A DNA stretch of 64,000 nucleotides. It comes from Verrucomicrobiota bacterium (lineage in GTDB: Bacteria > Verrucomicrobiota > Kiritimatiellia > SS1-B-03-39 > UBA6053). Below the pieces are notes generated by a model. That model saw only the letters and a list, made by a program, of their open reading frames with translations. It did not search any database and was not told the origin of the DNA. Positions 37,664 to 62,325 of this stretch are shown one piece after another. The stretch's first letter is position 1; every line of letters begins with the position of its first letter. The position numbers and the translations under genes are program-made. The DNA is taken from the NCBI GenBank assembly GCA_020831625.1, contig JAFIGD010000007.1, positions 62,001 to 126,000 of the forward strand, in the 5' to 3' direction.

Positions 37664-37757
37664 TGACTGTTAAGCAAACGGACACTTGTTAATCACTGGC
37701 GGAAAGGACACGTCTATTTTCATGCAAAGATCCAACCTTTCACCTGGAGCCTGGAAA

Positions 37758-40700
37758 ATGAAAAATGTATATTTAATGATCGGTTTGCTGTTCGCAGTCC
37801 CTGGAACAACAGCCTTCGGGAACGTTGTTTCGGTGATTGCCGCGGTCGAGCCGGCCGCGCTTGATTTATCGAGAGGAAGCGGCATGGAGTCTTATGTGAC
37901 CCGTGCATCGATCCCAGCGGAGCATCCGGCTTTCAGCACGGCGCAGCGTTTTTCCGTGGTGAGGACACCGCAACATTCGCATCAACTACAGGTTCAGGCC
38001 GCTTCCGTGCGGGATCTGGCCGAGGGGGAGACCCTTCTTGCCCGCATCACGCTGCGGTCCGGCGATCCCAACCGGGACGCGGTGCGGGTTCCGTTTTTCG
38101 TGCAGGACCGTCAGGCGGGATTCCGCTCCATATTTGATGAGCGACTGGTGGTCGGGCAGGCCTGGGAAACGCATGATTTCGTGATTCCGATTCGCGGGGA
38201 CATGGCGGCGGGGCGTCTGCAGTTCTGTTTGTTTCTGGGGGAAACGGAACAGACGCTGGATTTGGGCCGTTTTGAGGTGATCATGATGGGTCAACATGCC
38301 GCGCGGGATGCTGTTTCCCGCCCGGATGCGGCTGTTTCCGTTTCAGTGCAGGGTGAATATGCGCCGGTGAACGCCTCCCGGAGTTCCATTACCGGAAGTT
38401 TACCCGGGGGATGGGAGGAGGACTCGTCCTGGGCGGATGTGGGCGTGAATTACCGCGCGCAAACGTTGAACCCGTTCGACGGGGACCGCTCCCTTCGGGT
38501 CGAAATCAGCGAGGTGCGGCAGGGCTCGGTGCAGTTCCGGATTCCGAAGGTTCGGGTTTTGCCCTCGCACATGATACGGTTGCGGATCCCGGTGCGCAGC
38601 GAGGACCACCTTACCGGAACGGTGGCCCTCAGGCAGCGCGGCGCCCCGTATGCGGTTTATTGGGAAAACAGTCTCTCCGCCCGCCCGGAATGGGGGGTGA
38701 TCGAATTATTGGCCTCCGTGCGTGACACCGATCCGGAAGCGACGCTGATGTTCAGCTTCAGCAGTCCCGGAACGTTTGAAATCGGCGATTTCGCGATCGA
38801 ATATTTGACGCCCGAGCAGGCGCTGGCGGGACAGTCTTTTGAGGGGAATCTTTTGCAGAGTTCCTCATTCCCGCTTGGATTGACCGCGCCGTGGGCGATC
38901 GGCGCCAACGGAACCACTGAAGAGCATCTTCGCGCGGATCCCGATCATCCGGGACCTTCCGGACTGCCGTCGTTGCGGCTGGAGACCAATCGGTATGAGG
39001 GCCGACCGATGATGCAGATCACCGCACCGTTTATCGGCCGACCCGGAGAGTCGCACACTTTAAGTTTTTGGGCCAAGAGCGAGCGGCCGGGGATGAGGGT
39101 GCATATGCGGATGGGCCCGCCCCGGGAATCGCTATGGCGCGATCCGTGGCAAAAAGACGCCCTGTTAACCACGGAATGGCGGCGATATGAGATGACGGTT
39201 CAGCTGCCCCCGGCTCCGGACATGCTGTACCTTGCCCGTTTCACCAGTCATGACCTTGGCGTGTTTTGGATTGATCAGGTGATGGTGGAGCAATCCGAAG
39301 CGGCCGGACCGTTTCAAACCACCGGGCCGGTGGAGGTGTATGCCGTGCCCGCCCGGGAGTGGGGGCTCTCGTTCGAAGATGAACCCCTTTCGGTTCGCCT
39401 GGCGATGCACGGGCAAATTGACCAGGTTGACCGTGTGAAGGTTGAGGTGCTGGATCTTTACGGCGAGCGCACAGAACTGCCGCCGCTTCCCCCGGAACAG
39501 ACTGAACTCACACTGCCGGATATTCAGACGCTGGGGAGTTTTCTGGTGACACTTACCGCTGTTGACGCGCAGGATCAGCGGCTGGGGCACCCGGCGGAGG
39601 TTTTGCTGCATCGGGTGCGGCAACCCCGGCGCTGGGGTGAGATCGCTTTCGATTCGCCTTTTGGCACGCACGTGGCCTCGACGCCGACCGCGACCCGCAT
39701 GGCCAAGGCTCTCGGGTTCAATTGGAACCGGATGCATTATAAATTCAACTGGACAGGGCTGCAGCGCCCCGACGGCAGTTGGAATTTCGACGGGGCGGAT
39801 GCCCGGATCGCTCCGCACAAGGAGAATGATCTCCTGATTCTGACCCACTTTGGCGGGGTGCCCAAAGAGCACTCCACCCGCAGACCTGAATGGCAGGGGA
39901 ACACCTGGTACCACATGACCGCCGCTCCGCAAATGTCCTCCATGGACGCATTTGAAGAATATTGCCGGCGACTGTTGGAACACGCCGGGGACAGTCTCCA
40001 GGCGGTGGAAACCTGGAACGAGCCTTTTCTCGCCGGATTTTTTGTGGCGGACGTGGTGAATGGACGGCCGGTCCGGGAACGGCCGGAGGTGCTGGCGGAG
40101 TTGAACCGGCGCGCCCGCTCTGCGGTTGAAGCCTCCGGATACACCGGCCTGCTGATGTGGAATGTCGGTCCGCACTACGGCGATTCCGAGCGCGGATTCG
40201 ACGAGGCCGCGCGCGATCTCGGCGCGGCGGACTCCGTGGACGCCTTGAGCTTTCACCGGTACACCAACGCCCGCCTCGGATTTCCGGGGGATCAGTTTGA
40301 TCTGGATTTATCCGTGATCAATGAGGTGTTTGCCGATCATTCCGCCGCCTCGACGATATGGAACAGCGAGGGCGGGCACGGACTCAGTGAGGTTTTCAAC
40401 CTGTATCAGAATATCCCCCCCTTCGGACACCGGGCGCGCGTGAATGCCCAGGCCGCGCAGTATGTCCGGTATTTCCTGTCGAATTTCGCCGCCGGGGTTG
40501 AGAAGGTGTTTATCTACACCCTGTATCCCCAGGACGGCTGGCTGTCGAATTACGGATATCTGAACGTTGACGGGGTTCTCTCGCATATTGCCCCGGTCAC
40601 GTCCAATATGGCCTGGCAGTTGGAAGGAAAGCGCTTTGCCGGGGCGCGGAACCTCCACGACGGCATTCATGCGCAGCTTTATGCCGGCGAAACCGAGAAC

Positions 40701-41066
40701 ACCGTCGTCTTCTTACCCACCGGGCGCGGGGAGGCGGTTCTGCATCACACCGTTCCGGGGCTGCGTATAGACGACCTGTGGGGAAACCCGGCGGAGCCCC
40801 CCCGGAATTTTGTGACCGGGCTGCTCTATCTCAGTGCGCCGGGGCTTACGCTTGATCAGGCCTCAGAGCTGTTGAACGCCTCGTCACCGCCCGCATTCCG
40901 GGTGGTTTCCGCAGAGCCGGAAGCGGCTGCCCCGGCGGCTGCTCCGTCGTCCCCCCGTCCCGCTCCCGCAGAGGCCGGTGACGGAAACCCGGTTTATCTT
41001 GTGGTGATTCTGGTTCTGGCCGCCCTGGTGTTTCTCCCTCTGTTCAAGAATCGATCCGGAGGCTGA
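37758..41066 (+). CDS. Membrane-anchored clan GH-A glycosidase with N-terminal beta-sandwich domains
   Basis: This 1102-residue secreted protein has a signal peptide (MKNVYLMIGLLFAVPGTTAFG), two or three carbohydrate-binding-like beta-sandwiches (about 30-580; one reads GESHTLSFWAKSERPGMRVHM, split here, as in CBM4/9), and a TIM barrel from about 640. Glu755 in ETWNEP is the expected acid/base and Glu871 in IWNSEGG the nucleophile, as in GH39/GH5 (clan GH-A). A Pro/Ala linker and one C-terminal helix (about 1072-1093) with KNRSGG would keep it on a membrane. I start at the ATG at 37758; an upstream in-frame start would bury the signal peptide. The substrate is probably the same glycan as for the sulfatase downstream. 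Confidence 0.83.
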   Translation: MKNVYLMIGLLFAVPGTTAFGNVVSVIAAVEPAALDLSRGSGMESYVTRASIPAEHPAFSTAQRFSVVRTPQHSHQLQVQAASVRDLAEGETLLARITLRSGDPNRDAVRVPFFVQDRQAGFRSIFDERLVVGQAWETHDFVIPIRGDMAAGRLQFCLFLGETEQTLDLGRFEVIMMGQHAARDAVSRPDAAVSVSVQGEYAPVNASRSSITGSLPGGWEEDSSWADVGVNYRAQTLNPFDGDRSLRVEISEVRQGSVQFRIPKVRVLPSHMIRLRIPVRSEDHLTGTVALRQRGAPYAVYWENSLSARPEWGVIELLASVRDTDPEATLMFSFSSPGTFEIGDFAIEYLTPEQALAGQSFEGNLLQSSSFPLGLTAPWAIGANGTTEEHLRADPDHPGPSGLPSLRLETNRYEGRPMMQITAPFIGRPGESHTLSFWAKSERPGMRVHMRMGPPRESLWRDPWQKDALLTTEWRRYEMTVQLPPAPDMLYLARFTSHDLGVFWIDQVMVEQSEAAGPFQTTGPVEVYAVPAREWGLSFEDEPLSVRLAMHGQIDQVDRVKVEVLDLYGERTELPPLPPEQTELTLPDIQTLGSFLVTLTAVDAQDQRLGHPAEVLLHRVRQPRRWGEIAFDSPFGTHVASTPTATRMAKALGFNWNRMHYKFNWTGLQRPDGSWNFDGADARIAPHKENDLLILTHFGGVPKEHSTRRPEWQGNTWYHMTAAPQMSSMDAFEEYCRRLLEHAGDSLQAVETWNEPFLAGFFVADVVNGRPVRERPEVLAELNRRARSAVEASGYTGLLMWNVGPHYGDSERGFDEAARDLGAADSVDALSFHRYTNARLGFPGDQFDLDLSVINEVFADHSAASTIWNSEGGHGLSEVFNLYQNIPPFGHRARVNAQAAQYVRYFLSNFAAGVEKVFIYTLYPQDGWLSNYGYLNVDGVLSHIAPVTSNMAWQLEGKRFAGARNLHDGIHAQLYAGETENTVVFLPTGRGEAVLHHTVPGLRIDDLWGNPAEPPRNFVTGLLYLSAPGLTLDQASELLNASSPPAFRVVSAEPEAAAPAAAPSSPRPAPAEAGDGNPVYLVVILVLAALVFLPLFKNRSGG

Positions 41067-41137: not shown

Positions 41138-41154
41138 AAGGTTGCGTAAACCTT
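41138..41154. promoter_or_regulatory. Inverted repeat upstream of the sulfatase gene
   Basis: AAGGTT-GCGTA-AACCTT is a perfect 6-5-6 inverted repeat 40 bp before the sulfatase ATG, in a 128-bp intergenic region. It may be an operator or a weak hairpin. No matching site occurs upstream of the glycosidase gene. Confidence 0.35.
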
Positions 41155-41194: not shown

Positions 41195-44100
41195 ATGAAC
41201 CTGAAACCATCCTCACCGACATCCCTTCTCTGTGCCGCCGCCAGCCTCTTCACGCCGCTTGCCGCGCAGGAAACGCCTTACAATGTGCTGCTGATCACCG
41301 TGGACGATCTGCGGCCGGAACTGCCGGCCTATGGACAGGGACACATCCACGCTCCGAACATGACCCGTTTGACTGACGAGGGGCTCACCTTCAACCGCGC
41401 CTATGTCCAGCAGGCGGTTTGTCAGCCCGCCCGGGCCAACGTGCTGACCGGGGCCCGTCCCGACACCACCCGTATTTACAGTGTTTTCGGAGGCGGCTGG
41501 CCCACCTTCCGCAACACCATGGGGGCGGTGGACACCCTCCCGTCCCTCTTCAAGGACAACGGATACTGGACCGCCGGCTACGGCAAAAATTTTCATCACG
41601 TGGATCTTCCCTCCTGGGACGAACACACGACGTTTTACCAGACCGCGGACCTCTACCAGCGTCCCGAAAACCGAGCCGTGGCCGGCGATGCCTCCCAGCG
41701 GCCCGCCTGGGAGTTTTTTGACGACGCGCTTGAATCCAACACCATGGACGCCAAAGTCGCCGCCGCCGCCGTGCAGGCCATCCGCGACCGCGCCGACGAC
41801 GGTTCGCCCTTTTTCATTGCCGCGGGATTCTGGAAACCGCACCTGCCGTTTTCCGCGCCCCAAAAATACTGGGATCTCTACGACCGCGAAACCCTGCCCA
41901 TCGCGGAGGGATTGGATGCGCTGCCGGTTCAAAACGCGCTGCCCGCCGGATTTTATGATCCGTTTTCCGGGGAACTGACCACCTATCAGGGCGGACGCCC
42001 TCCTTTTGTCGGTCAAACCGCGGAAACCCAGGCCGCGCTGGCAAACGGCACCTTCACCACCAACCAGCAAACCGGTGACGACTGGGGGATCATCACTGTC
42101 AACGGCACCCACATCTATCCCGAGGACTACGTCCGCGAAATCACCCACGGGTACTATGCCTGTGTCAGTTTTATCGACGCCCAAATCGGGAAGATCCTCG
42201 ACGCCCTGGAGGAGGAGGATCTTCTGGACAACACCATTATTGTGCTCTGGGGCGACCACGGGATGCATGTCGGTCAGCACGGCAGTTGGCCCAAGCACAC
42301 CAACATGGAAATCGCCACCCGTTTTCCGTTCATCCTGCACCATCCCGACATGCCCAGCGGCACCCGGGGCGTTTTGACCGACGCGCTGGTGGAGTCGGTG
42401 GATATTATGCCCACCCTCCTCGAACTCGCCGGGGTTCCCCTGCCGACCACGCACGCCCTCGAGGGGGTCAGTCTGGTTCCGCTCATGGACGAGCCGGGCC
42501 AGACCTGGAAAACCGCCGCCTTCAGTCAGTACCCCAGAGAAGTGCCGATGAACTCCGGCATTTGGTACATGGGCTATGCCATGCGCACGGCCACCCACAC
42601 CTACATGCAATGGCGTGAAATGGACGCCACCGACGGCAATCCCATTTCCCTGGCCCAGCGCAACTTCACCATCAGCAACCGTGTCGCTTACGAGGAACTG
42701 TACGACATGGTGATCGATCAGCGGCAAAATCATAATATCGGCGGGGATCCGCAATACCGCGCCCTGATGGACGCCCTCGGTGAAAAAATCAGCACCGCCC
42801 TCACCACAGAGTATGCCAACACCCAGAACGTCGCCTCCGCCGACCCCGCCGCGCCCGGCGCTCACGCGGTCGCCTTCCACGGCGGCACCTCGGTCGGGGA
42901 CACCCTCACCGCCCATTACATCTACGGCGATGCCAACGGCGATCTTGAAAACGGAACCCTGATCGAATGGGTGCGTGCCGAAGACTTCAACGGCCCCTAC
43001 GACACCGTGGTCGGCACCGGAAGCACCTATACCCTGCAGGCCGACGACGCGGACGCCTTTGTGAAACTCAGGGTTACCCCCCAAACCGATGTCGCGCCAA
43101 CCACCGGGGACGCCGTGCTCAGCGCCACCGCCGTGGTCGCGGGTGTCGGCTTCAACGACGGCTCCGGACTTCCCGCGCCCGAAAGCGCCGTTTACGAAGG
43201 TTTTGCCTACGCCTCCGGCGTGATCAGCAGCACCAGCGCGGGCGGTCGCGGCTGGAACGGAGGCTGGTGGGGCAATGACGGCCTCAGTTTCGGCGGTAAC
43301 AGCGGCGCTCAAGCCGTGGATTTCACCTGGAACCATCTGCCCGAAGGGTATCATCACACCCCCGCGGGCCGCGCCGCCACCAACGGGGCCAACAGCAACA
43401 ATCCGTACCGTCAACTGCACGGAGCCCAGACCATTGATCTCGCCCAAAACGGCACCCGCTACTTCAGCTTCCTTTATCAGCACAACGGGTCCGCGCCCAC
43501 CTTTGAGAAGCGTTTTCACGCGGGCACAACGGAAATCCTGAAACTTCAAATCAACGCCGACGGCAGCCTTGGGCTCATCACCCCCGATGAGACCGCCATG
43601 GGGCTGCTCACGCTGGATGCCGACAGCGCGTATGTGGTGCTCGGACGCATTCAGTCCGCCGCCTCCGGCAACGACACCCTCAGCGTCTCCGTGTACAAAG
43701 CGGGGGACACCGTGCCCGCCTCGCCGCCGGTGTTCGCCGCCTCGGTCAGCGTCAACAGCTCCGCGACCCTTGACCGTGTCTTCATGGGCAATCCTTTTAA
43801 CGGCAGCAACACGGGAAACAGTCCCTGGGACGAATTCCACATGGACGCCAACTACGCCGCCGTGGTCGGAACGCCCGACGAGGAGGATGACGGCGGCAGC
43901 GGCCATGTGCCGCCTTTCCTGACTGAACGTTTTGACTACAACGCCGGCGGCATCGCCTCCGGCAACGCGGGTGGAACCGGCTGGGACGGGGGCTGGTTCG
44001 GCAATGCGGAACTCACTTTCGGCGGCAACAGCGGCGCCGCCGCCGCCGACAAAACCTGGAGCACCCCGGACGGATACCATTACATCCCCGAAGGCCGCGC

Positions 44101-46861
44101 CGCCACCAACAACAACCACGGCAACACCCCCTTCCGCAAACTGGCCGCAGGCTCCACGATCAACCTCGGCTCAGACACCGTCTATTTCAGCTTCCTCTTC
44201 TCGCACGCCTCCACCAGCATGTTTGAGTACCGCTTCTACGCAGGCACCTCCGAGATCACGAAGCTTCAGGTCGATCAAAACGGACAACTCCGTCTCGTCG
44301 GGACGGACTTTCTCCCCACCGGCTTGAATCTGACCGCCGGCCAGGACTACCTCATCACCGGAAAAATCGAAGGGAACGCGGCCGGCAACGACACCCTCTC
44401 CGTGCAGGTCTACGGCTCCGGGGACACCGTGCCCGCCGACGAGCCGGCCTTCACCCACTCCGTGACGTTCCAAAGCTCGTCCATAATCGACCGCCTCATG
44501 ATCGGCATCCCGGGGAGCACCACCACCAGCGCCACCTACTGGGATGAAATCCGCATGGGCACCACCTGGGGCTCCGTCATCGGAGCGGCGTCTGACGGGG
44601 AGAATGACGGGGATGACGATGAGGATCCCGACGATCCGCCGCCGCCTCCCGCCGAACTCATGCTGCACCTGACCTTTGATGAGGGAACGCTGGCCGACAG
44701 CTCTCCCGCCGCACTGAATGTCACCGGAACTGTCGGATACGCCACCGCCGACGGCCGCAGCTACGCCACCCTGAACGGCGTGGACCAGGCCATCACCGCC
44801 CCCATCCTCGGCAGTTTTCCCAACGGACTTTCGATCGCCTTCTGGACTCTCGCGCAGGACGGTGAGAACGGCATGCCTAAAAACACCGCCCTCGGCTGGG
44901 CCCGCCAGGGCGGGACCACCGGCAGTCTGGGCGACGGACTGGTCCTTGGCTTCGGCTGGAACAACAGCACCAACGCCCTGGTGCGCGTCGGGCGCGAAAA
45001 CAACATCAACGACGACATCAGCCTCCCCGAACTCACGGACTGGCTGAACACCTGGGTTCACTGGACCGTGGTGAAAGATCCCGCCGCCGGAACGATTCAG
45101 GTTTATCGCGACGGTGAACTGTACAGCAGTGTGTCCAACCGCACCATCATCCCGGCCTTCGAAAGCCAGTCCTGGGCCACCGGATCCGGTTTGCGGATCG
45201 GGCGTTATTTTGACGACTTTTATAAAGGATATCTGGACGACTACCGACTTTACCACGGCGTGCTTGATTCCGCCGCCGTGCAGGCCATCTATCAGGAGGG
45301 CGGAACGGTGGACCGCTCCCTCGCCAACACCGTCCGCCGCCTCACCCACGACCAGGCCCTCAACGTGGTCTTTTTCGGCGGGTCCATCACCGACGGCGCC
45401 GGACAGAACAATGGCCTGCCGTGGCGCACCCGGACCGAAAACTGGTTTAGCGCAACCTACCCGGACGTGGACTTCGCCTTCACCAACGCCTCCATCAGCG
45501 GCACCACCTCCGAGTTCGGGGTCTTCCGCGCCGACCGCCATGTGCTCTCCGCCGAGCCCGATCTCGTTTTTGTCGAGTTCGCGGTCAATGATATTGAGCA
45601 GGTGTCCGCGACCCGCACCCGCCACACGATGGAGGGTATTGTGCGCAAAATCCGCTCCGCGCATCCCGCCTGCGACATTGTTTTTATTTACACCACCACC
45701 CGCGCCAACGCGGTCAACTTTTATGAGCAGGACCAGCTCCCCCCGCGCACCGCCGTCCACCAGGAAGTGGCCGATCACTACGGCATTCCCGTCATCGATG
45801 TCGCCGCCGCGCTGGTGGCCCACAAACATCAGACCGGATATCCCTACCGCATTGAGTTCGGCGAGCCCGGGGCCTTCGATCCCGCCGCCAACCACTACCT
45901 GCCCGATCACGTTCACCCCAGCAATCTCGGACACCAGGTCTACGGCGACGCGATCCAGGCGGCGTTGGAAACCTACTTCGCGATCCCTCCGCCCGACGAC
46001 CCCGAGCCGCACCCCATGCCTGAACTGTTCGGCGGCTACGACATGAGTTCCGCCCGCATTCTCGACCACACCCACCCCGGTGTTTCCCATGGCGCGGGGT
46101 GGGCGGTGCAGGCCATGGGAATCGGCGCCGGCGGACGCACCGACGACTTCCTCTTCACCGATGCCGCCTCCACCACATCCAACATCACCGTTCATTTCAG
46201 CGGACCCGAATTCGGCGTGTACTACCGCCGCATGACCAACGGCGGGCAAATCGCATGGGACGTGGACAGCGGCGCCGCCGGAAACACCTTCTCGTTTTGG
46301 CACGAAACCCTCACCAGCTTCACCTCCCAGGCCATGCTTTCCACCGCTCTGGGAGAGGGAAACCACGTGGCGGTCATCGACCCGCAGGCCTACGAGGGCC
46401 ATGAAACCCTCGCCATCGCCGGCTGGCTGGTGACAGGGGAACATACCGGGCCGTCCCAACTGAATTACACCGACTGGGCCGACAGCGTATACGCCCATCT
46501 TGACGGCGGTGCCGCCCATCCCGAAGCCGCGCCGGATTTTGTCCCGCCGGGCGGCCGCCTGAGCAATCTCCAGATTTTCGCCTATGGCGGCACGCCCGAA
46601 ACGCCTCCGCCCCCGCCCGCTCTGACCCCGGTGGACGATTATCCGGAACTGATTTTTTCCCGCCGCGCCGACGGCGCGGCTTCGCCGGTTTTTTTTCACG
46701 CAACTGAATTAATATCCGGCTCCTGGAGTGATGCGGGGTTACAGATTCTCTCCATCACCCCGGCGGGCGACGGGATTCGCGAGGAGGTCCGTGTGCGCTC
46801 CCCGCTGACCCTTACCGACCAGCCCTTGCAATTCTTCGCCGTTCACGTAGAGGCGGACTGA
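41195..46861 (+). CDS. Sulfatase - beta-sandwich repeats - LamG - SGNH hydrolase fusion
   Basis: This 1888-residue secreted protein has a signal peptide of about 24 residues. Residues 26-555 are a type I sulfatase like iduronate-2-sulfatase: metal residues Asp37/Asp38 (ITVDDLRP) and the formylglycine motif CQPAR at 76-80. An Ig-like domain follows, then two homologous repeats (about 665-900 and 908-1130; FGGNSGA and GYHxxPxGRAATN in both), a LamG-like lectin domain (about 1150-1365) and an SGNH esterase with Ser1397 (FFGGSITDG), Asn1465 (FAVND) and Asp1571/His1574 (DHVHPS). Two further beta domains end the protein. It should remove sulfate and acyl groups from one polysaccharide. Activation needs a formylglycine-generating enzyme, which is not in the window. 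Confidence 0.9.
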   Translation: MNLKPSSPTSLLCAAASLFTPLAAQETPYNVLLITVDDLRPELPAYGQGHIHAPNMTRLTDEGLTFNRAYVQQAVCQPARANVLTGARPDTTRIYSVFGGGWPTFRNTMGAVDTLPSLFKDNGYWTAGYGKNFHHVDLPSWDEHTTFYQTADLYQRPENRAVAGDASQRPAWEFFDDALESNTMDAKVAAAAVQAIRDRADDGSPFFIAAGFWKPHLPFSAPQKYWDLYDRETLPIAEGLDALPVQNALPAGFYDPFSGELTTYQGGRPPFVGQTAETQAALANGTFTTNQQTGDDWGIITVNGTHIYPEDYVREITHGYYACVSFIDAQIGKILDALEEEDLLDNTIIVLWGDHGMHVGQHGSWPKHTNMEIATRFPFILHHPDMPSGTRGVLTDALVESVDIMPTLLELAGVPLPTTHALEGVSLVPLMDEPGQTWKTAAFSQYPREVPMNSGIWYMGYAMRTATHTYMQWREMDATDGNPISLAQRNFTISNRVAYEELYDMVIDQRQNHNIGGDPQYRALMDALGEKISTALTTEYANTQNVASADPAAPGAHAVAFHGGTSVGDTLTAHYIYGDANGDLENGTLIEWVRAEDFNGPYDTVVGTGSTYTLQADDADAFVKLRVTPQTDVAPTTGDAVLSATAVVAGVGFNDGSGLPAPESAVYEGFAYASGVISSTSAGGRGWNGGWWGNDGLSFGGNSGAQAVDFTWNHLPEGYHHTPAGRAATNGANSNNPYRQLHGAQTIDLAQNGTRYFSFLYQHNGSAPTFEKRFHAGTTEILKLQINADGSLGLITPDETAMGLLTLDADSAYVVLGRIQSAASGNDTLSVSVYKAGDTVPASPPVFAASVSVNSSATLDRVFMGNPFNGSNTGNSPWDEFHMDANYAAVVGTPDEEDDGGSGHVPPFLTERFDYNAGGIASGNAGGTGWDGGWFGNAELTFGGNSGAAAADKTWSTPDGYHYIPEGRAATNNNHGNTPFRKLAAGSTINLGSDTVYFSFLFSHASTSMFEYRFYAGTSEITKLQVDQNGQLRLVGTDFLPTGLNLTAGQDYLITGKIEGNAAGNDTLSVQVYGSGDTVPADEPAFTHSVTFQSSSIIDRLMIGIPGSTTTSATYWDEIRMGTTWGSVIGAASDGENDGDDDEDPDDPPPPPAELMLHLTFDEGTLADSSPAALNVTGTVGYATADGRSYATLNGVDQAITAPILGSFPNGLSIAFWTLAQDGENGMPKNTALGWARQGGTTGSLGDGLVLGFGWNNSTNALVRVGRENNINDDISLPELTDWLNTWVHWTVVKDPAAGTIQVYRDGELYSSVSNRTIIPAFESQSWATGSGLRIGRYFDDFYKGYLDDYRLYHGVLDSAAVQAIYQEGGTVDRSLANTVRRLTHDQALNVVFFGGSITDGAGQNNGLPWRTRTENWFSATYPDVDFAFTNASISGTTSEFGVFRADRHVLSAEPDLVFVEFAVNDIEQVSATRTRHTMEGIVRKIRSAHPACDIVFIYTTTRANAVNFYEQDQLPPRTAVHQEVADHYGIPVIDVAAALVAHKHQTGYPYRIEFGEPGAFDPAANHYLPDHVHPSNLGHQVYGDAIQAALETYFAIPPPDDPEPHPMPELFGGYDMSSARILDHTHPGVSHGAGWAVQAMGIGAGGRTDDFLFTDAASTTSNITVHFSGPEFGVYYRRMTNGGQIAWDVDSGAAGNTFSFWHETLTSFTSQAMLSTALGEGNHVAVIDPQAYEGHETLAIAGWLVTGEHTGPSQLNYTDWADSVYAHLDGGAAHPEAAPDFVPPGGRLSNLQIFAYGGTPETPPPPPALTPVDDYPELIFSRRADGAASPVFFHATELISGSWSDAGLQILSITPAGDGIREEVRVRSPLTLTDQPLQFFAVHVEAD

Positions 46862-46863
46862 GT

Positions 46864-47781
46864 ATGTTTGAACTTCCGGGACATCATTTGGGCGACACCT
46901 GGTTTGCCGCCGACGAAGAACGCGTGCACATGTACGTGCTCGTCTGCCCCCTCGGAATCCCCCGGCACACCCGCTGGTCCATTGGCCACGCCAGTTCCAC
47001 GGATCTGAAACATTGGACCTATCACGGCATCCTCTTCGACTCCCGTCCTGACGATCCCCAATGGCACTGCCTCTCCACCGGCTCCGTCTGCCGCCATGGT
47101 GACCGCTGGATCATGGCGTTTCTCGCCAATCACAACCAGCCCGACCCCCGCAGCGTGCTCGCCGAGTCCACCGATCTATTTCACTGGAACCTGATCCCCG
47201 GCATCGAGGCCCGCATCGACGGCGAAATCTACACCCGCCGTCCCAGCGTTCCTTTCAAAAATCCCCGTTGGCGCGACCCCTTTGTGTTTGAACACGAAGG
47301 AGCGCTCTATCAGCTCATGACCGCCGCCTCCGAAGCCTTGCCAGACGACCGCGACGGCGTGGTCGGACTGATGCGCACCCGGGATCTCCGCCGCTGGGAA
47401 ATGCTTCCGCCCCTGCGCACGCCCGCGATCGGCACCGACCTCGAATGCCCCAAGCTCCACCGCGTCGACGGCGCCTGGCAACTCGTCGTCTCGCTTTTCA
47501 ACGTTCTGCAGGCCCCCGACTTCGCCGCGACTCAACCCGCGGGCCGAAATCCCAACACCAGCTTTTCGCTCGCCGCCCAAACCCTGAACGGACCGTATGA
47601 AGGGGAGGGGGACTGCCGCGTTTCCCCGGAGGACATCCCCGGATGTCCCTACGCGTGCAGTCCCGTCTACTGGAAAGGCGCATGGTATCTGCTCGGCACC
47701 CGTTGGAGCGACCGCCTCGGCGACACCATCTCTGATCCGCTGAAAATTCGTCCCACTCCCCGCGGTTTCCGGGCGGTGTGA
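46864..47781 (+). CDS. GH32/GH43-like five-bladed beta-propeller glycosidase
   Basis: This 305-residue protein has propeller-type repeats (SSTDLKHWTYHG, ESTDLFHWNLIPG, TRDLRRWEML) and two motifs matching clan GH-J: WRDPFVF (compare FRDP) and ECPKLHRVDG (compare the ECP motif that bears the acid/base Glu). An Asp near the N-terminus (GDTWFAADEE) is a nucleophile candidate. There is no signal peptide, so it would act on imported oligosaccharides in the cytoplasm, unless the N-terminus is misjudged. It starts two bases after the sulfatase stop, so the two are co-expressed. The exact family and sugar are uncertain. Confidence 0.78.
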   Translation: MFELPGHHLGDTWFAADEERVHMYVLVCPLGIPRHTRWSIGHASSTDLKHWTYHGILFDSRPDDPQWHCLSTGSVCRHGDRWIMAFLANHNQPDPRSVLAESTDLFHWNLIPGIEARIDGEIYTRRPSVPFKNPRWRDPFVFEHEGALYQLMTAASEALPDDRDGVVGLMRTRDLRRWEMLPPLRTPAIGTDLECPKLHRVDGAWQLVVSLFNVLQAPDFAATQPAGRNPNTSFSLAAQTLNGPYEGEGDCRVSPEDIPGCPYACSPVYWKGAWYLLGTRWSDRLGDTISDPLKIRPTPRGFRAV

Positions 47782-54347: not shown

Positions 54348-56914
54348 GTGTGATCTGGACTGGAATTTGGCCCTTTTGGCTGGTGCTTCCCCTGGGACTG
54401 CTGCTGGTGCTTTCCCAGGTTTGGCTCTACCGCCGTCAGCGGGTCGCGAAACCCTGGAACGTGGTGCTGCCGATGCTCCGCAGTCTGGCGCTTATCCTGC
54501 TGGTGCTGGCCCTGCTTCAGCCAGTGCTGGCCCGCTTCTCCCGTCAAATCCTCCGCGGCGAAGTGCTGGTGCTGGTGGACGACAGCGGGTCCATGGGCGT
54601 GGCCGACCGCTACGAACCCGCCCGCGCCATCCGCATCGCCTCCCGTCTGGAGCTGTTTCCCGCGATTCTGCGGGCCGTCCTGCAGGCGGACGAGGCGGCC
54701 TGGAATCGCATCCTCGAACCTCTCGATAAAGAGGAGCCAACCGAAAACGACCTTCAGCGCGCGTCCGAACGGCTGGAGCGTTGGCTGAGCGACACCCGGA
54801 CCCGTCTGGACCGTCATGCCTATCTTCGCGGCGAAGGGCCGCCGGGCTGGACGGAATGGGTGGCTGCCGTCCGGCAAAACGCCGCGGATGCCGGGGCCCT
54901 GAACGCCCTGCGAAAGGATTTCCCCGCCCTGCAGGAAGCCGCCGACACCGCGCTCGCCGAGGCCGGCATCCCCGAAGTGGACGCGGCCCTGGAAAAACTT
55001 GGCGACATGACCCGGCTGGATCTGGTGACCGCCCTTTGGGATCGGGAACTCTTCGGAATGCTTGATGCCAAAGGCGAGGTCAAGGTCTTCGGACTCGATT
55101 CCGGCGAACAGCCCTTCCCCGAGCCCGACCTCGGCGGACTCACGGGCGGTCACGCCACCTCGCCCCTGGGCGAGGCCCTGCGCGATGCGGTGCGCGGACG
55201 CGGGGACGCTCCCCTCACCGGGGTGGTGCTGATTTCCGATGGCAACATCAACGCCGGACTTACCCTGACCCAGTTCGTGGAGACGCTGGAGGGCCGTAAT
55301 CTGCCCTTCGTCGCCCTCGGCGTGGGCGAGGAGAAACCGGCGGAGGATCTGGTGCTGGAACAGGTCATTGCCCCCGAGACCGTGTTTGTGAAAGACCGGG
55401 TGGCCATGCGCGTCCTGCTCTCGCGCCACGGTTACACCGACGTGCCCGTGGAACTGCGGGTGAGCCACGGCGGGGAGACCCTGCACACGCAAATCCTCCC
55501 CCCCGGGGAAGAGGAGCGACTCTGGGTGGATGTCGGTTTTGTGGAAACGGAAACCGGCGAGCGGGAATACCGCGTGGAGCTGGAGCACATGGAGGACGAG
55601 TGGCTCGAACGCAACAACCACCGCGACGTGCGGGTCAACGTGCTGGAGGATGCCATCCGCGTCCTGCTGGTCGACGCCTGGCCGCGCTGGGAAACCCGCT
55701 ATCTCGACATGATGCTGCAGCGCGATCCGCGGGTGGAGGCTCACACGATTTTCTACGGCTCCAGCGAAAGCGGCACCCTGCGCACCGGACCCGACCGCTA
55801 TCCCGAAACCCGCGAGGATCTCTTCGGCTACGAAGTGGTCATTCTCGGCGACGTCGATCCCGCCCAGTTCTCGCGGGGTCAGTTGGAGGATCTCCGCGAT
55901 TTCGTCGAGGAGCGCGGCGGCACCCTGATCTGGATCGCCGGCACCCAGCACATGCCTCTGTCCTTTCAGCACACCCTCCTCTGGTCGCTCGCACCCTTCC
56001 GCCTCAGCCCCGCGGCCAGCGAACCCGGGCAGGAATTTCCCGTCTTCCGCCTGCAGCTCACCGACACCGGCAAGCACGATCCCATGAGCCGCATCTCCAA
56101 CGCCGACGAGGTCAGCCGCCGCCTCTGGGAGGAGCTGCCCCCGCTGCCGTGGGTGAAACAGGGCCTCACCGCCCTGCCCATGGCCGACCGCACCGCGGAA
56201 ACCGTGGAGGGCGAAGTCCCCGTGCTCATCAAATCCCACCGCGGCCTCGGACGGCTGGTGTACATCGGGTCCGATTCCTTCTGGCGCTGGCGCGACCGCG
56301 CCCGCTGGACCTATCACCAGCGGCTCTGGGGACAGATCATCCTCTGGTCGGTGCTGGACCGCACCGGCGGTTCCGATCCGCATGTGAAGCTCATGACCGA
56401 CCGCCTGCACTACGCAACCGGCGAGTCCGTCACCCTCCGCGCCCGCCTGCTGGACGCCAACGGGCGGCCGCTGTCCCGCGCGGACGCCAGTGTGGAAATC
56501 TACGACGAACGCGGCGAACAGGTCCGCAAACTGACCCTGCGCGAACTTTCCGGGGAGGGCGGCGCCTACGAGGCGTCCGTGGACGGACTGCCGGAGGGAC
56601 GCTACACCGTGCGCCCCGTCGTCTTTGAACTGCGCAATGAAAACGTGCAGGCGGAAATCAATTTCCGCATCGGCGATCTGCCCACCAACGAATATGTGCG
56701 CCTCGCCTACGATGCCGCCGCCCTGCGCGGGGCCACTCCCCATGTGGGCCGGGTCTGGGATCCCGAAACCGCGCTGACACCCCTGGAGCCCCAGACCCAC
56801 GAGATCACCCGCCGCGAAGACCTTGAACTTTGGAACCATCCGCTCTTCCTCGCCCTGGCCGTTGGCCTGCTGAGCGCCGAATGGTGGAACCGACGCAGGA
56901 AACACCTCCCATGA
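54344..56914 (+). CDS. vWA - amidotransferase-like membrane protein
   Basis: This 856-residue protein has two N-terminal helices (about 9-29 and 46-64), then a vWA domain with Asp79, Ser81 and Ser83 (LVDDSGSMG). The vWA fold is interrupted by a roughly 180-residue helical insert before VVLISDGNINAG. A beta-sandwich, a class-I-glutamine-amidotransferase-like domain (about 437-560, IRVLLVDAWPRWETRYLDMM and EVVILGDVD) and a second sandwich follow, then a C-terminal helix. No catalytic Cys is evident in the amidotransferase-like fold. I start at the ATG at 54344 (ATGA overlap); the open frame upstream lies inside the previous gene. Confidence 0.87.
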   Translation: MSVIWTGIWPFWLVLPLGLLLVLSQVWLYRRQRVAKPWNVVLPMLRSLALILLVLALLQPVLARFSRQILRGEVLVLVDDSGSMGVADRYEPARAIRIASRLELFPAILRAVLQADEAAWNRILEPLDKEEPTENDLQRASERLERWLSDTRTRLDRHAYLRGEGPPGWTEWVAAVRQNAADAGALNALRKDFPALQEAADTALAEAGIPEVDAALEKLGDMTRLDLVTALWDRELFGMLDAKGEVKVFGLDSGEQPFPEPDLGGLTGGHATSPLGEALRDAVRGRGDAPLTGVVLISDGNINAGLTLTQFVETLEGRNLPFVALGVGEEKPAEDLVLEQVIAPETVFVKDRVAMRVLLSRHGYTDVPVELRVSHGGETLHTQILPPGEEERLWVDVGFVETETGEREYRVELEHMEDEWLERNNHRDVRVNVLEDAIRVLLVDAWPRWETRYLDMMLQRDPRVEAHTIFYGSSESGTLRTGPDRYPETREDLFGYEVVILGDVDPAQFSRGQLEDLRDFVEERGGTLIWIAGTQHMPLSFQHTLLWSLAPFRLSPAASEPGQEFPVFRLQLTDTGKHDPMSRISNADEVSRRLWEELPPLPWVKQGLTALPMADRTAETVEGEVPVLIKSHRGLGRLVYIGSDSFWRWRDRARWTYHQRLWGQIILWSVLDRTGGSDPHVKLMTDRLHYATGESVTLRARLLDANGRPLSRADASVEIYDERGEQVRKLTLRELSGEGGAYEASVDGLPEGRYTVRPVVFELRNENVQAEINFRIGDLPTNEYVRLAYDAAALRGATPHVGRVWDPETALTPLEPQTHEITRREDLELWNHPLFLALAVGLLSAEWWNRRRKHLP

Positions 56915-59900
56915 ACACCCCGAACCTTGATCCGGCCCGCGACGACACCGCAGCCCTTCTGCATGAGGGCCTGAACCGCTTTGAAGAAAAATGGAAGCAG
57001 CAGCAGCGCCGCCTGGGCGCGGGCCGTTTCCTGCTGGCGGCGGTGGTGCTGCTGCTCCTGGCCGCAGGTGTGGACCTGGTGATGACCCCGGAAGGTGCCG
57101 CCCGCGCCGGACTGTCCCTGCTGTTTTATGCGTCCCTTGCCGCCGCGGCCTGGTTCCTCTGGTGGCGTCCGGTGCTGCGCCCGCTTTCCGCCGAAAAAAT
57201 CGCCTGGATGATCGAGGACACCCACACGGAACTCAACGAAAAACTCATCAGCGCGGTGGAGTTGGAAAAGGAGCGCGAGGGCACCGTGTCCCGGGCCATG
57301 ATTTTGCAGACCATCGCCGACACCGAAGTGGATCTCGGTCGCGTGGACCCGGAGCGCGATCTCGCCCCGCCCCGCTGGCTGAAACTCCTGCCCGCCGGGA
57401 TAGGGGTTCTGATGCTGATCCTGATGCTGGTGCCGGGCCTGTATCTGCCCCTGCGCATCAAACGCATCATGCTGCCCACCGCCGCCGACGCGGCGGTGAG
57501 CACCTTCGCCCTGCGCTGGGTCGAGGCCCCGCAAGGCCGCGTGCCCGAAAACACAACGCTCCGGGTGACCGTCGAACGCACGCGGGACACCGGGGAGCAG
57601 GTGGTGCTGGAGATACAGGGCGAGCAGAGCCGCCGTCTGTCCATGCGCTGGAACGAGGCGGATGCTGTTTTCGAGGGGGAATTCACGGTGCCCAACCACC
57701 CGGTGTGGGTCTACGCACGTTCGGGCGGCGCCAGCACCCGCCGCGTTCAGGTGGATCCCATGCTGCGTCCCTGGATTGAAAACCTGACCCTGGAAATCCA
57801 TCCGCCGGCCTACACCGGTGCCCGCGTGCGGGTGCTGGACAGCTGGCCGCGCGAGTTGGAGGTGGTGGAGGGCTCCCGCATCCACCTCCAGGTGACCGGC
57901 AACGAGCCGCTGTCACGCGCCGCCGTGCGGTCCGAACAGGAGACGGTCGAGATTCCCCTGACCTCGGACGTCATCGCCAAGGGCGACTGGATGCCCGCAC
58001 ACAGCGGCGAATACACCCTGTGGGTTCGGGACCGGGAGGAGCTGGAGCCCCTGGATTCACCGCGGTTGCAATTGCGAGTGCTTCCCGATCTGCCACCCAC
58101 CGTCTCCTGGGTCGCCCCGGAAAGCGACCTGCTGTTGCGCGAGGGCGACAGCCTGCCGCTGGTCTGGACCGCGTCGGATGATTTCGGGGTGACGGAAAGC
58201 CGCGTGGCAATCCGCAAAAACCGCGACGCGCCGGTGGAGATTGTGGTCACGCCCGCGAACGGAAGATACACCTATGATTTATCGGACTGGTCGCTGGGCG
58301 GCGGCGATGAGCTTCGGGTGCAGGTCTTCGCCAAAGATGCCCTGGGACAAGAGGGGGAATCCCCGCTCCGCACCCTCAGCGTGGCCGGCGGACTGGATCA
58401 CGCCGAAGCACAGCAGTATCTGCGTGATTTGACCGCGCTCCGGGTTCACATGAATCGGAGCGGTCCGCCGCTGGAGGCCCTGCAACAGTCCCGCGCGGGC
58501 ATCTTCGAGGCGGTGGTCTACGAAACCCCCAGCGCCTTGGAGAACGTTGAATTCCAGCGGGTGCGCTGGCAAATCAGCAAATCCCAACTCGACAGCAACC
58601 TCACTGAAGCCCGCGGACGTGCGGACGCCTTGCGTCAGCGCGCCTTTTTCTCCGCCGGCGCGACGGCGCTGGAGCTGCTGGCCCGCTATACGGAACAGGA
58701 GCGGGTGCGACTTCATACGGTGGACCCCGCCACGTTGCAGACCGGACCCGGCGTGGCCGGGGTCTACGAACTGGGTCTGCCCCTGCTGACGGAACTGCAA
58801 CGGCTGGCGGACATTGCCCTGCCGGCCCTGCAGGCGGCCCGGCTCGAAACGATGGTGGCACTGGTGGCCCCGCGCCAGGACGCAGCCTCCCGCCGCCTGC
58901 TTGAGGATCTGCGTCACCGCACCATGGTGTTTGCGAACCGTCACGCGCCCGAAAGTGTGACCGCGCTGGAGTCGCTTGATCTGCGGCCGGACTCCGGCAA
59001 ACCCGCCCGCGGCCTGCGCCGCTGGATGTGGCTGGAGCGCACCACCTACACCTACGATCCGGGAACGGCCGGGGCGCGCATGGACACGGAAAGCCATATC
59101 AACCATCCGAACCTGCCCAGCATGAACCTGGGGGGAAACCAACTGGTGTCCATCCTCTGGCTGGGACGGGTGCGCGCCGAACGCGGGGGAACCTACCGCT
59201 TTGATTTGGAGTCCGACGACGGATCGCGTCTCTATGTGGGCGATCAGTTGGTGGTGCGGAACGACGGAAATCACGCCATGCAGCGGCGGGAGGGGCAGAT
59301 CGAATTGCCCCCCGGCCTGCATCCTATCCGCATCGTGTACTTCAATTCCGGGGGCGTTGGCGGCATCATCTTCCGCTGGCAGCCACCGGGCCGAAACGAA
59401 TGGGAGGTGGTTCCGGCGGGCGTTCTCTATGAACCGGGCAACGTTGGCGCGATGAGCTTTCATGCCATGATCAGCGGCCTGAGCGCACGCCTGGAGCGGG
59501 AGGCCGGAAACCTGCGGGAACTGGAGCGCTGGATGGCCCGCATCCGGGAGCGGCTGGAATCGCCCGAAGCGCTTCTGGCCGCGGTCCGTGACCCCGCGGA
59601 GATCGCCGCCCTGGCCGAAGCCCTCCGACTCCGGGCCGAGGCGGAGGAAAATGCGTCCCTCGCCCGCCTCGCCGACGAATTGGCCCGGGCCGGACTCCGC
59701 GAAGATGCCGAAGCGGTGGAGCGCATCCTGCAGGCCGTGGCCTCCCTCGCCCGGGACCGCGAACAGGAGGCCTGGGAAACCCGCCTCCGCGAAGAGACGC
59801 AGCGGGCCATGGACCTGGTGCGGGGTCTCGAACATCTTTCCTCCCTGGAAGAGGAGGCCGAACGCCGCGCCCAACTGCGCGAGGAGGCGGAACGCCTGCG

Positions 59901-62325
59901 GGCCCTCGCCAACGCGCAGCCCGACACCGGCACCGACCGCCAGCACGAGCGCGATCTCCGCGACGCGGCCCGGGACCTTCAGCGCATGGCCGAGGAAATG
60001 GCGAAACTGGATGCCGACCCTGCCGAACGCATCGCGGCCATGGAACGCCATCAGGAAAATCTGGAAACCCGGATGGACCGCGCCGAGGCCGCCTCCAAAC
60101 AGGAGCTGGCCCAGACGGAGGACAGGCTGCGCGCGGCCCTGCCCGCCGCCTCCGAAGAGATCGCGTCCAGTGCCGAACGCCTGGCCGAAGCGGAGGACGC
60201 GATGGCCGCCCTCGCGCAGGAGCGGGAACGTCTGGAGTCGGTGATTCAGGCCCTGCGTGAACCCCTGGATCTGCGAAGGGACGCGGAGCAGCGAATTTCC
60301 CCCGAGGATGTGCGCGATCAGCGGCTCGCCGAAGTGCTGGAACGTCAGCTCGCCTCGGAGGAGCCCGCCGCTGTTCAGGCGGCGTTGGAAGCGGCGCAGC
60401 CTCTGGTGGCCGCGCAGGAGCAGGCCCGCCGTGAAGCCCTGACGCAGGGCGAGGAAGCCGCGCTGTCGCAGGCAATTCGCGAGGCGACGGACCCCGTGCT
60501 TTCGCCGTCCGAAGCCGAGGCCTTCGACCGCATGGATCGTCTCGCCGCCGCCCGCGAACAGGTGGAGCGTCTCGCCCGCGAGGCGGAGGCGCTTGGCAAT
60601 CAGCCCGTGCCCGAACGTCTGGCGGATGAAGTGGCCCGCGCCCAGGTCGCCCTGGCGGACCCTGCCGCCCCCCAGCCGGAATCTCCCCCGCGCACCCGTG
60701 CCGAACAGGCGCAACTGGAGGCGGCCCATGATCGCATGCGGGCCCTGGAGAATCCGCTCGCCCGCGCCCGACTGCAGGAGGAGGATTCCGAAGTTCGGAA
60801 AAATATGGAACAGGCTTTCCGAGAGTCGGAAAGACTCCAGAACGAGCTGGCGAAGATGGCCACACCGGAAAGTGCGCGTCTGCGGGAGATGGCGGATGCA
60901 ATGGAGCGTCAAATGCGCGCCGAGGATGTCCGTGGCGCCGAGGAAACGCTGGCGGCCATGCAGCGTCAGGTGGACGAGTGGGCCGGAGAGAACCCGGTGG
61001 CGCCGCGCTTGGCGGAGCAGGCCGAAGCTGCCGCGCCCACGCCGGGAGATCCCGCGCAACAAATGGCGCGGGCGGCGGAGGCGCTGGAAAGGGCTGCGGC
61101 CTTTGAGGAGGCCGTCCCGCCCTCGCTGGCTTCGGCACAACAGCAAGCCGAGCAAGGTGATTTTGGTCAGGCCGCGCGCGAACTGGCCGCAGCGGGAGTG
61201 GAGCCGGAGCTGGCCGAGCAAGCCCGTGCCCTGGATGCGGACATGCGGCAGCTCCAGCAGGAAGCCCAGCGCGCCGCCGTGCAGGATGAACTCGACCGCC
61301 GCGAGCGGGATGGGCTTCAGCGTCTGGCCAACGCCCTGGCGGATCGCAATCTGCAGGAGGCGGAGCGACAGGCCACCTGGGCCAGGGACGCGGGCGAAGC
61401 GGCCCGGGAGGAGTTGGCGCGTATTCGTGAAGAGTCGCAACAACTGGCCCAATCTCTCGCCGAGGCCCGGGAATCGACCGTCAATCCCCATGCTGAACCC
61501 GCCAGCGAACAGTTGGCTGCCGCTGCGGAAGCCCTAGCAGGCCTGCCGGAAAGCGGAGAAGCGCAGGCCCACGCCCAAGCCGCCCAGGCCCATGCCGAAC
61601 AGGAACAATGGCCGCAAGCCGCCGCCGAAGCCCAACAGGCCGCCCAAGCCGCAGAGACGGCGGGACCACCCGGCGAACCCGGTGCCCCCGGCGAACCCGG
61701 TCTGGCCGACGCTGGAGCCCCCGAACCCGGCGCTCCGGGTGAGCCCGGCGCGCCCGGCACTCCAGGTGCCCCCGGCAGCCCCAGCACCCCTGGCGCTTCA
61801 CCCGAAGCCGCTGCCGCTGCCGCCACCCCGTCGGATTTGTCCGGTTTGTCTGATTTGTCCGATTCCCCCTCTTCCTTCCCCACCCAAGCCGCCCAGGCCC
61901 AACTGGCCGCCGCAGAAGCCGCGCTGCGCCAAGGCGATACCCCGCAGGGTGCCCAGGCCCTGCAGGCGGCCGCGCAATCGCTGGCCCAGGCACAGGCGGA
62001 AGCCGCCGCCCCAGCCCCAGGCGCACCACCCGCGGCCGCAGCCTCCCAGCCCGGATCCCAGCCCGGCGCTGAACCGGGCGAGGGACAATCCGACGCCCCC
62101 TCCATGGCCGAAGGCGGCGCTGGAGGCGAGGGCGGCTCGCTGGCGGAATCCCAGGGCGGCGCCGACCCGGATCTTTGGCAGGGCCCCCAGGGCGGAAACT
62201 GGGAGGGCGCACGCTCGGACATGGACACCGGGGATCCCCGCCGGGCCGGTCAGCAGTATTCCCCCTATTACCGCCGCGCCATTCAACAATACATGCGCGA
62301 TCTGCAACAGGAGCAAAGTCCATGA
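56911..62325 (+). CDS. Giant DUF4175-like protein with PA14, coiled-coil and collagen-like regions
   Basis: This 1804-residue protein has three N-terminal membrane helices (about 38-55, 68-86, 150-175) around EDTHTELNEKLISAVELEK, reminiscent of DUF4175. Ig-like domains follow (to about 520), then a PA14-like domain (about 700-845, GTYRFDLESDDGSRLYVGD). Next comes a very long Ala/Glu/Arg-rich coiled coil (about 860-1585), a collagen-like Gly-x-y stretch (about 1585-1630), a Ser-Asp-Leu repeat (1641-1652) and a disordered Gly/Ala/Pro tail ending in a short helix. PA14 usually binds glycans. It looks like a long envelope-spanning structural partner of the vWA proteins. Its coiled coil contains an in-frame palindromic repeat element (60786-60833). 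Confidence 0.85.
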   Translation: MNTPNLDPARDDTAALLHEGLNRFEEKWKQQQRRLGAGRFLLAAVVLLLLAAGVDLVMTPEGAARAGLSLLFYASLAAAAWFLWWRPVLRPLSAEKIAWMIEDTHTELNEKLISAVELEKEREGTVSRAMILQTIADTEVDLGRVDPERDLAPPRWLKLLPAGIGVLMLILMLVPGLYLPLRIKRIMLPTAADAAVSTFALRWVEAPQGRVPENTTLRVTVERTRDTGEQVVLEIQGEQSRRLSMRWNEADAVFEGEFTVPNHPVWVYARSGGASTRRVQVDPMLRPWIENLTLEIHPPAYTGARVRVLDSWPRELEVVEGSRIHLQVTGNEPLSRAAVRSEQETVEIPLTSDVIAKGDWMPAHSGEYTLWVRDREELEPLDSPRLQLRVLPDLPPTVSWVAPESDLLLREGDSLPLVWTASDDFGVTESRVAIRKNRDAPVEIVVTPANGRYTYDLSDWSLGGGDELRVQVFAKDALGQEGESPLRTLSVAGGLDHAEAQQYLRDLTALRVHMNRSGPPLEALQQSRAGIFEAVVYETPSALENVEFQRVRWQISKSQLDSNLTEARGRADALRQRAFFSAGATALELLARYTEQERVRLHTVDPATLQTGPGVAGVYELGLPLLTELQRLADIALPALQAARLETMVALVAPRQDAASRRLLEDLRHRTMVFANRHAPESVTALESLDLRPDSGKPARGLRRWMWLERTTYTYDPGTAGARMDTESHINHPNLPSMNLGGNQLVSILWLGRVRAERGGTYRFDLESDDGSRLYVGDQLVVRNDGNHAMQRREGQIELPPGLHPIRIVYFNSGGVGGIIFRWQPPGRNEWEVVPAGVLYEPGNVGAMSFHAMISGLSARLEREAGNLRELERWMARIRERLESPEALLAAVRDPAEIAALAEALRLRAEAEENASLARLADELARAGLREDAEAVERILQAVASLARDREQEAWETRLREETQRAMDLVRGLEHLSSLEEEAERRAQLREEAERLRALANAQPDTGTDRQHERDLRDAARDLQRMAEEMAKLDADPAERIAAMERHQENLETRMDRAEAASKQELAQTEDRLRAALPAASEEIASSAERLAEAEDAMAALAQERERLESVIQALREPLDLRRDAEQRISPEDVRDQRLAEVLERQLASEEPAAVQAALEAAQPLVAAQEQARREALTQGEEAALSQAIREATDPVLSPSEAEAFDRMDRLAAAREQVERLAREAEALGNQPVPERLADEVARAQVALADPAAPQPESPPRTRAEQAQLEAAHDRMRALENPLARARLQEEDSEVRKNMEQAFRESERLQNELAKMATPESARLREMADAMERQMRAEDVRGAEETLAAMQRQVDEWAGENPVAPRLAEQAEAAAPTPGDPAQQMARAAEALERAAAFEEAVPPSLASAQQQAEQGDFGQAARELAAAGVEPELAEQARALDADMRQLQQEAQRAAVQDELDRRERDGLQRLANALADRNLQEAERQATWARDAGEAAREELARIREESQQLAQSLAEARESTVNPHAEPASEQLAAAAEALAGLPESGEAQAHAQAAQAHAEQEQWPQAAAEAQQAAQAAETAGPPGEPGAPGEPGLADAGAPEPGAPGEPGAPGTPGAPGSPSTPGASPEAAAAAATPSDLSGLSDLSDSPSSFPTQAAQAQLAAAEAALRQGDTPQGAQALQAAAQSLAQAQAEAAAPAPGAPPAAAASQPGSQPGAEPGEGQSDAPSMAEGGAGGEGGSLAESQGGADPDLWQGPQGGNWEGARSDMDTGDPRRAGQQYSPYYRRAIQQYMRDLQQEQSP
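60786..60833. repeat. Double-palindrome (REP-like) element, copy inside a coding region
   Basis: TTCCGAA-G-TTCGGAA (60786-60800) and CTTTCCGA-GAG-TCGGAAAG (60815-60833) lie in frame within the 1804-codon gene and encode roughly SEVRKNMEQAFRESERL. Their centres are 31 bp apart, exactly as in the intergenic copy at 23954-24002, while the bases between the palindromes differ. Confidence 0.75.
61831..61866. repeat. 9-bp repeat TCYGRTTTG, four units
   Basis: TCGGATTTG, TCCGGTTTG, TCTGATTTG and TCCGATTCC encode SDLSGLSDLSDS in the disordered tail of the 1804-codon protein. It is the reverse-strand counterpart of the three four-unit clusters at 16211-16489, and in both genes the phase is the one that gives Ser-Asp-Leu. 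Confidence 0.8.

Follow-up and report, generated by a model that had tools for sequence, protein, structure and literature searches.

A predicted secreted chain joins a sulfatase and a CE17-like SGNH esterase in a Kiritimatiellia bacterium

The window, a stretch of 64,000 nucleotides of contig JAFIGD010000007.1 (assembly GCA_020831625.1), holds at positions 41195–46861 of the plus strand a single open frame that runs from an ATG at 41195 to a stop codon at 46859–46861 and encodes a chain of 1888 residues. From its ORF and Pfam matches, this gene is annotated as a putative secreted sulfatase/CE17-like SGNH esterase; an alternative TTG start at 41153 would give a product 14 residues longer. Residues 1–24 (41195–41266, plus strand) read by eye as a signal peptide with a putative cleavage site between TPLAAQ and ET, and signal-like N termini are likewise seen by eye in two orthologues, L001 and L002, described below. 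Antisense frames of 968 and 842 residues overlying the gene were set aside, being taken for the mirror image that a long frame rich in G+C leaves on the other strand.

The upstream plus-strand frame (37686–41066; 1126 residues) shows a weak CBM_4_9 match and is possibly a glycoside hydrolase, as judged by eye from its WNEP and WNSEGG motifs; it has no Pfam glycosidase match and no PDB match, and was not found in L001 or L002. Downstream, 2 nt after the stop codon, lies a GH32-like β-propeller hydrolase (46864–47781, plus strand; 44.5 bits, cut-off 22.1). This neighbour is present at all three orthologue loci (92% for L001; 56% for L002, where it lies on the opposite strand). Partnership of an S1_7 sulfatase with GH32 has precedent, since Kiritimatiellales carry S1_7–GH32 fusions (PMC6388578); GH32 is fused in SCARR_04167, whereas in the window the GH32-like protein is encoded by the next gene.

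Three Pfam matches exceed their curated cut-offs, namely Sulfatase (residues 30–414, E 4.9e-42), Laminin_G_3 (residues 1195–1363, E 7e-11) and Lipase_GDSL_2 (residues 1393–1582, E 3.3e-21). The sulfatase domain (residues 25–540; 41267–42814), delineated from Pfam, PDB sequence matches and active-site residues, contains all ten expected active-site residues (D37, D38, C76, R80, K131, H134, H216, D354, H355 and K367). The motif C76-Q-P-A-R80 (41420–41434) conforms to the C/S-x-P/A-x-R maturation signal. Residues D37, D38, D354 and H355, which we take from iduronate-2-sulfatase to bind the metal, and K131, H134, H216 and K367, which we take in the same way to bind sulfate, are present and conserved among relatives. 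In an alignment of 204 sulfatase rows from 79 loci, about 90–94 of which cover each site, D37, D38, R80 and D354 each occur in 94 of 94 rows, C76 in 92 of 94 (serine in the remaining two) and H134 in 81 of 90.

By sequence, the closest PDB entry is 6hhm (P18_S1_7; E 2e-75, 257 bits), followed by human iduronate-2-sulfatase (5fql/6ioz; E about 1e-52, 182 bits) and then, well behind, by other sulfatases (113 bits for the next). The S1_7-like label denotes these nearest PDB neighbours, whose own S1_7 labels come from PMC9096561 and PMC5066984, rather than a SulfAtlas profile assignment. P18_S1_7, from Formosa agariphila, is described as a 2-sulfo-xylose sulfatase that attacks ulvan in endo mode (PMC9096561). 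The window sulfatase shares its active-site residues with both P18_S1_7 and human iduronate-2-sulfatase; however, their solved chains comprise 475–525 residues, whereas the window protein runs on into seven further domains, including the esterase. Sulfatase-family matches fall at 52 places in the own genome, a count that includes separate pieces of a single gene. The genome encodes both a formylglycine-generating enzyme (FGE; PF03781, 290.6 bits) and an anaerobic-type maturase (anSME; TIGR03942, 512.7 bits, above cut-off), so that Cys76 can be matured.

The sulfatase is followed by an Ig-like domain (residues 541–664; 42815–43186) matched, without reaching the cut-off, by ZirU/SinI models (E about 1e-8) and also by IG_AIR9 (E 0.012 in the window protein and 4.1e-5 in L002). 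Two LamG-like repeats come next, rep1 (residues 665–911; 43187–43927) and rep2 (residues 912–1165; 43928–44689), and then the Laminin_G_3 domain (44777–45283). The repeats are 48% identical (alignment A2), which bears out the proposal, made from the letters before any search, that they are paralogues. The predicted structure of rep1 (pLDDT 86.2) displays a concanavalin-A-like jelly roll, and together with the Laminin_G_3 match this agrees with the proposed linkage by lectin-like β-sandwiches and a LamG domain. The best solved matches of rep1 are a domain of sialidase BT_1020, glucuronan lyase, calreticulin and legume lectins; as many jelly rolls score alike (Z 12.4–14.4), the model allows the fold class to be named and no closer family. 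NCBIfam assigns no name to the LamG-like repeats. A binding role is likely for them. Relatives of these repeats are found in small proteins of the family as well. One such protein is encoded by the frame that immediately precedes the L002 orthologue (L002:7929-8810); it comprises one LamG-like repeat and, judged by eye, a PEP-CTERM-like tail, and its frame is in phase with that of the L002 sulfatase, with one stop between them.

The SGNH hydrolase domain (residues about 1378–1600; 45326–45994), defined from Pfam, alignment and a predicted structure, is succeeded by a CBM35-like β-sandwich (residues about 1601–1750; 45995–46444). Residues 1378–1747 match RiCE17 of Roseburia intestinalis (6hfz) over both domains by sequence alone (E 2e-25 and E 2.5e-26), and a profile of 43 sequences raises this match to E 2.3e-56. 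The predicted structure of the pair (pLDDT 90.2, pTM 0.91) agrees with RiCE17 in a Foldseek comparison (E 7.2e-27), and its best PDB fold matches are 6hfz/6hh9 (Z 35.5, r.m.s.d. 2.7 over 344 residues), the runner-up (Z 20.9) covering the SGNH domain alone. In the model, as in RiCE17, the CBM35-like domain packs on the preceding SGNH domain. Residues Ser1397, Asn1465, Asp1571 and His1574 align with Ser41, Asn110, Asp190 and His193 of RiCE17, whose roles are described in PMC13276840; with Gly1436 at the oxyanion position and the DxxH arrangement of Asp1571 and His1574, the SGNH blocks are complete. Ser1397, Asn1465 and His1574 are each conserved in 42 of 43 rows and Asp1571 in 36 of 43, counts that include the window protein itself.

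The pair shares the two-domain fold and catalytic positions of RiCE17 (6HFZ, 6HH9), from which it differs in being only about 22% identical and in forming part of a chain with sulfatase and LamG domains, both absent from the 378-residue RiCE17. RiCE17 strips 2-O-acetyl groups from mannan (PMC13276840, PMC10492685); this specificity cannot be transferred, because the CBM35 clamp residue Trp326 aligns with Phe1709, in a loop whose alignment is unsteady among the 43 rows. For the same reason, the label is kept at CE17-like, meaning likeness to RiCE17 rather than a CAZy profile assignment. The presence of a CE17-like SGNH domain with a CBM35-like clamp, as modelled, points to a predicted O-acetylesterase activity on polysaccharide. 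The chain ends with a domain of unassigned fold (residues about 1756–1888; 46460–46858), which has no Pfam match and is kept in L002 and partly in L001.

Taken as a whole, these features uphold what the sequence-only reading had claimed, namely apparently complete sulfatase and SGNH active sites in one continuous chain, numbered correctly from Cys76 of CQPAR to Ser1397, Asn1465, Asp1571 and His1574. That observation is correct and even understated, since the structure prediction it had called for lets the esterase be named more closely, as a CE17-like enzyme with its own predicted CBM35-like clamp, and since the Ig-like, CBM35-like and conserved C-terminal domains come in addition.

A search of 58 relatives with the Ig-like and rep1 stretch (351 residues) returned some match in 8 and the orthologous sulfatase chain in 3: the own genome, a congener (L001; JAFIGC010000105.1) and MAG UBA6056 of the same family (L002; DIYK01000058.1). 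The C-terminal half differs in each, consisting of LamG and CE17-like domains in the window, lacking an esterase in L001 and carrying a CE3-like SGNH domain in L002. The L001 protein is 86% identical to residues 1–1266 and resumes at residues 1761–1781 and 1869–1888 with its frame open; two in-frame deletions, provisional in view of the draft genomes and an L001 coverage of about 8, halve the LamG domain and remove the SGNH domain together with the bulk of the C-terminal one, and Pfam detects no GDSL domain in the chain. The L002 protein is 59% identical over residues 28–1132, and its alignment with the window protein is regained in the C-terminal domain (34% over 133 residues). Between these regions it carries, at the same place as the window SGNH, a GDSL domain above the Pfam cut-off that is nevertheless of another kind: the two barely align (blastp E 0.72), and the sole solved relatives found for the L002 domain are CtCes3, a CE3 enzyme (2vpt, E 1.3e-5), and an ORF1-encoded protein (4c1b, E 4.3e-4). 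Pfam finds no Laminin_G_3 domain in L002, nor is a CBM35-like domain seen in the alignment.

In a third congener (G003) only fragments with stops remain, corresponding to residues 334–469, the last stretch of rep2 and some of residues 1596–1653; a fourth (G002) shows no match to the linker stretch. The G003 remnant (L124:2027-2717) lies downstream of a frame named by eye as glucose-6-phosphate dehydrogenase-like. The half LamG domain in L001 and the CBM remnant in G003 argue that a LamG–esterase end was probably already present in the ancestor of the congeners and has been lost since. The pairing is thus not indispensable, because L001, the nearest relative, has lost the esterase yet keeps an open sulfatase frame, and G003 retains remnants only.

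The earlier call to search for the same architecture is answered in part: it yielded the second sulfatase–SGNH chain in L002, and no further one among the candidates checked, which form a sample rather than an exhaustive census. At most 3 to 5 candidates per genome were scored in the phylum-wide searches (CE17-like, S1_7-like and Thalassoglobus-phylum). CE17-like SGNHs occur in at least 120 of 387 phylum genomes (E 1e-10). All 5 other frames of at least 900 residues among the matches listed were fetched, with 10 shorter ones, and no sulfatase was found in these 15 chains (8 searched by Pfam, the other 7 with the sequences and HMMs of this study). Matches are also present in 74 of 392 genomes of the phylum of Thalassoglobus (L018), where 4 listed frames of at least 900 residues and 3 shorter ones contain no sulfatase by Pfam (the longest, of 2242 residues, searched over 1999). 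Conversely, S1_7-like sulfatases match in at least 119 of the 387 phylum genomes; the 9 listed frames of at least 900 residues besides the three orthologues gave no GDSL domain in the 8 searched by Pfam (E 1e-5), the ninth being tested by phmmer only. The Lipase_GDSL_2 search of 11 family genomes listed 12 frames of at least 900 residues, in which a sulfatase was detected only in the window gene and L002 (of the others, the one on contig C60 was searched by Pfam and the other nine by one HMM only). Among 825 frames of at least 400 residues from all loci examined, both HMMs match only the window gene (two loci), the SGNH HMM here being the CE17-like one, which is blind to the L002 esterase and would miss other SGNH types. 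The L002-type SGNH has matches in 7 of 194 genomes, mostly in frames of 1000–3000 residues, and those re-examined show no sulfatase by phmmer. Nor is a GDSL domain present in seven long sulfatase chains (five from the 79 loci and two from the own genome), whose partners are GH3, GH43, a second sulfatase or LamG/PA14.

The literature titles and abstract openings surveyed, outside SulfAtlas and most subscription journals, report no sulfatase–SGNH esterase fusion. Kiritimatiellales S1_7 fusions are described with GH10 (PDESU_06089 and SCARR_04194) and GH32 (SCARR_04167; PMC6388578); they join the same sulfatase subfamily to a glycan enzyme, with the difference that the partners are glycosidases and not esterases. 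CtCes3 unites two de-decorating domains in one polypeptide (PMC9487903), as does the window chain; however, both of its domains are esterases. The novelty lies in the sulfatase–SGNH pairing and the variable esterase slot, with no new fold or chemistry.

From the sequence and the models, the chain is best read as a bifunctional enzyme that would strip the decorations from a polysaccharide bearing both sulfate and acetyl groups, a reading to which we assign a probability of roughly 0.6. It would be exported by Sec as a single protein, and the maturase(s) encoded in the same genome would turn Cys76 into formylglycine. The S1_7-like sulfatase would take sulfate esters off inside a polysaccharide on which the LamG-like domains may keep the chain, while the C-terminal SGNH and CBM35-like pair would close over the glycan and remove O-acetyl groups; with sulfates and acetyls cleared together, glycosidases such as the GH32-like neighbour could cut. 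The activities known for S1_7 (on xylose-2S in ulvan, on iduronate-2S and on κ-carrageenan; PMC9096561, PMC6388578, PMC5066984) single out no one substrate. The sequence-only suggestion of one bound chain that desulfates and deacylates a single polymer is reasonable and plausible but unproven. That L002 pairs its sulfatase with another kind of SGNH is counted in favour of the bifunctional reading.

The variability of the esterase slot, CE17-like in the window, CE3-like in L002 and absent in L001, could also mean that the protein is mainly a lectin-tethered sulfatase whose SGNH domain is an exchangeable accessory acting on a neighbouring acetylated glycan such as mannan or xylan, so that the two active sites could have separate substrates. 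In line with this, CE17 enzymes are described as active on mannan (PMC13276840, PMC10492685), not on the xylose or uronate 2-sulfates that known S1_7 enzymes attack. However, this sulfatase carries SGNHs of two kinds in one and the same position, which suggests that it is the pairing as such that is favoured, and CE17-like SGNHs are so numerous and divergent in the phylum that their substrates may extend well beyond mannan; we consider the accessory role unlikely. It is improbable that the SGNH domain is active on something other than glycan acetyl groups, such as a lipid or another acyl ester. SGNH hydrolases are indeed broad, and thioesterases and peptidoglycan esterases are among the weaker fold matches; yet the RiCE17 match spans both domains and stands far above the rest, and the partners of related CE17-like SGNHs include glycan enzymes and domains (GH31, GH63-like, β-helix and DUF4838; GH16 by eye).

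Two products from one frame would arise if linker proteolysis or an internal start at GTG1372, which is closely preceded by an AGGAGG-like stretch and falls right at the beginning of the SGNH domain, freed the SGNH half. Such a site is unsurprising in a frame that holds five in-frame start codons with a Shine–Dalgarno-like match; the product from GTG1372 would have no signal peptide, and its sequence is not common to L002, all of which makes this reading quite improbable. Least credible of all is a metagenome-assembly chimera. The own genome is a draft of 111 contigs, and L001 and L002 are MAGs; nevertheless, L002 retains the first 1100 residues on one side of a different SGNH and the C-terminal domain on the other, L001 breaks off midway through the shared LamG domain and picks up again within the shared C-terminal one, and the G003 remnant contains pieces from both sides of the fusion. 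G+C content and codon use are uniform, with no shift at the SGNH boundary. A chimera or two separate genes were thus rejected on the orthologues' ends and the uniform composition, and the relatives' retention of both ends sustains the view of one continuous chain.

Returning to the bifunctional reading, a bolder form of it, possible though doubtful, is that the C-terminal slot has been fitted with SGNH esterases at least twice, from different SGNH families, for coupled removal of sulfate and acetyl groups. If so, there must be some polysaccharide with both decorations on which the two removals have to be coupled physically, and the chain would be a processive or tethered 'stripper'. Some algal polysaccharides bear sulfate and acetyl groups together; to our knowledge, little is understood of how bacteria clear both. 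A natural sulfatase–acetylesterase chain would point to activities that may be partners on a single substrate. The three orthologues, each ending differently, would offer a natural experiment, with esterase A, esterase B or none.

Other long chains were observed in passing. Sulfatase–GH3 fusions are found in Mariniblastus (L061) and Akkermansiaceae (L064) MAGs, tandem sulfatase–sulfatase chains in L034 and L047, and a sulfatase–GH43 chain in L044. In two further long chains of the own genome (L084:1589-5008 and L085:432-3773), the sulfatase is accompanied by PA14, Ig-like and LamG domains, and Pfam detects no second enzyme. Standalone CE17-like SGNHs of about 470–510 residues are present in the own genome, in the L001 congener (G001) and in the L002 MAG (G004), with SGNH cores 41–42% identical. 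Contig C60 of the own genome encodes a second fused esterase, a chain of 1572 residues (L080:443-5158) whose N-terminal SGNH domain is followed first by a region resembling heparinase II/III and then by a chitobiase C-terminal-like domain, and further along the window, at 56830–62325, lies a frame of 1831 residues in which PA14 is the only recognised domain.
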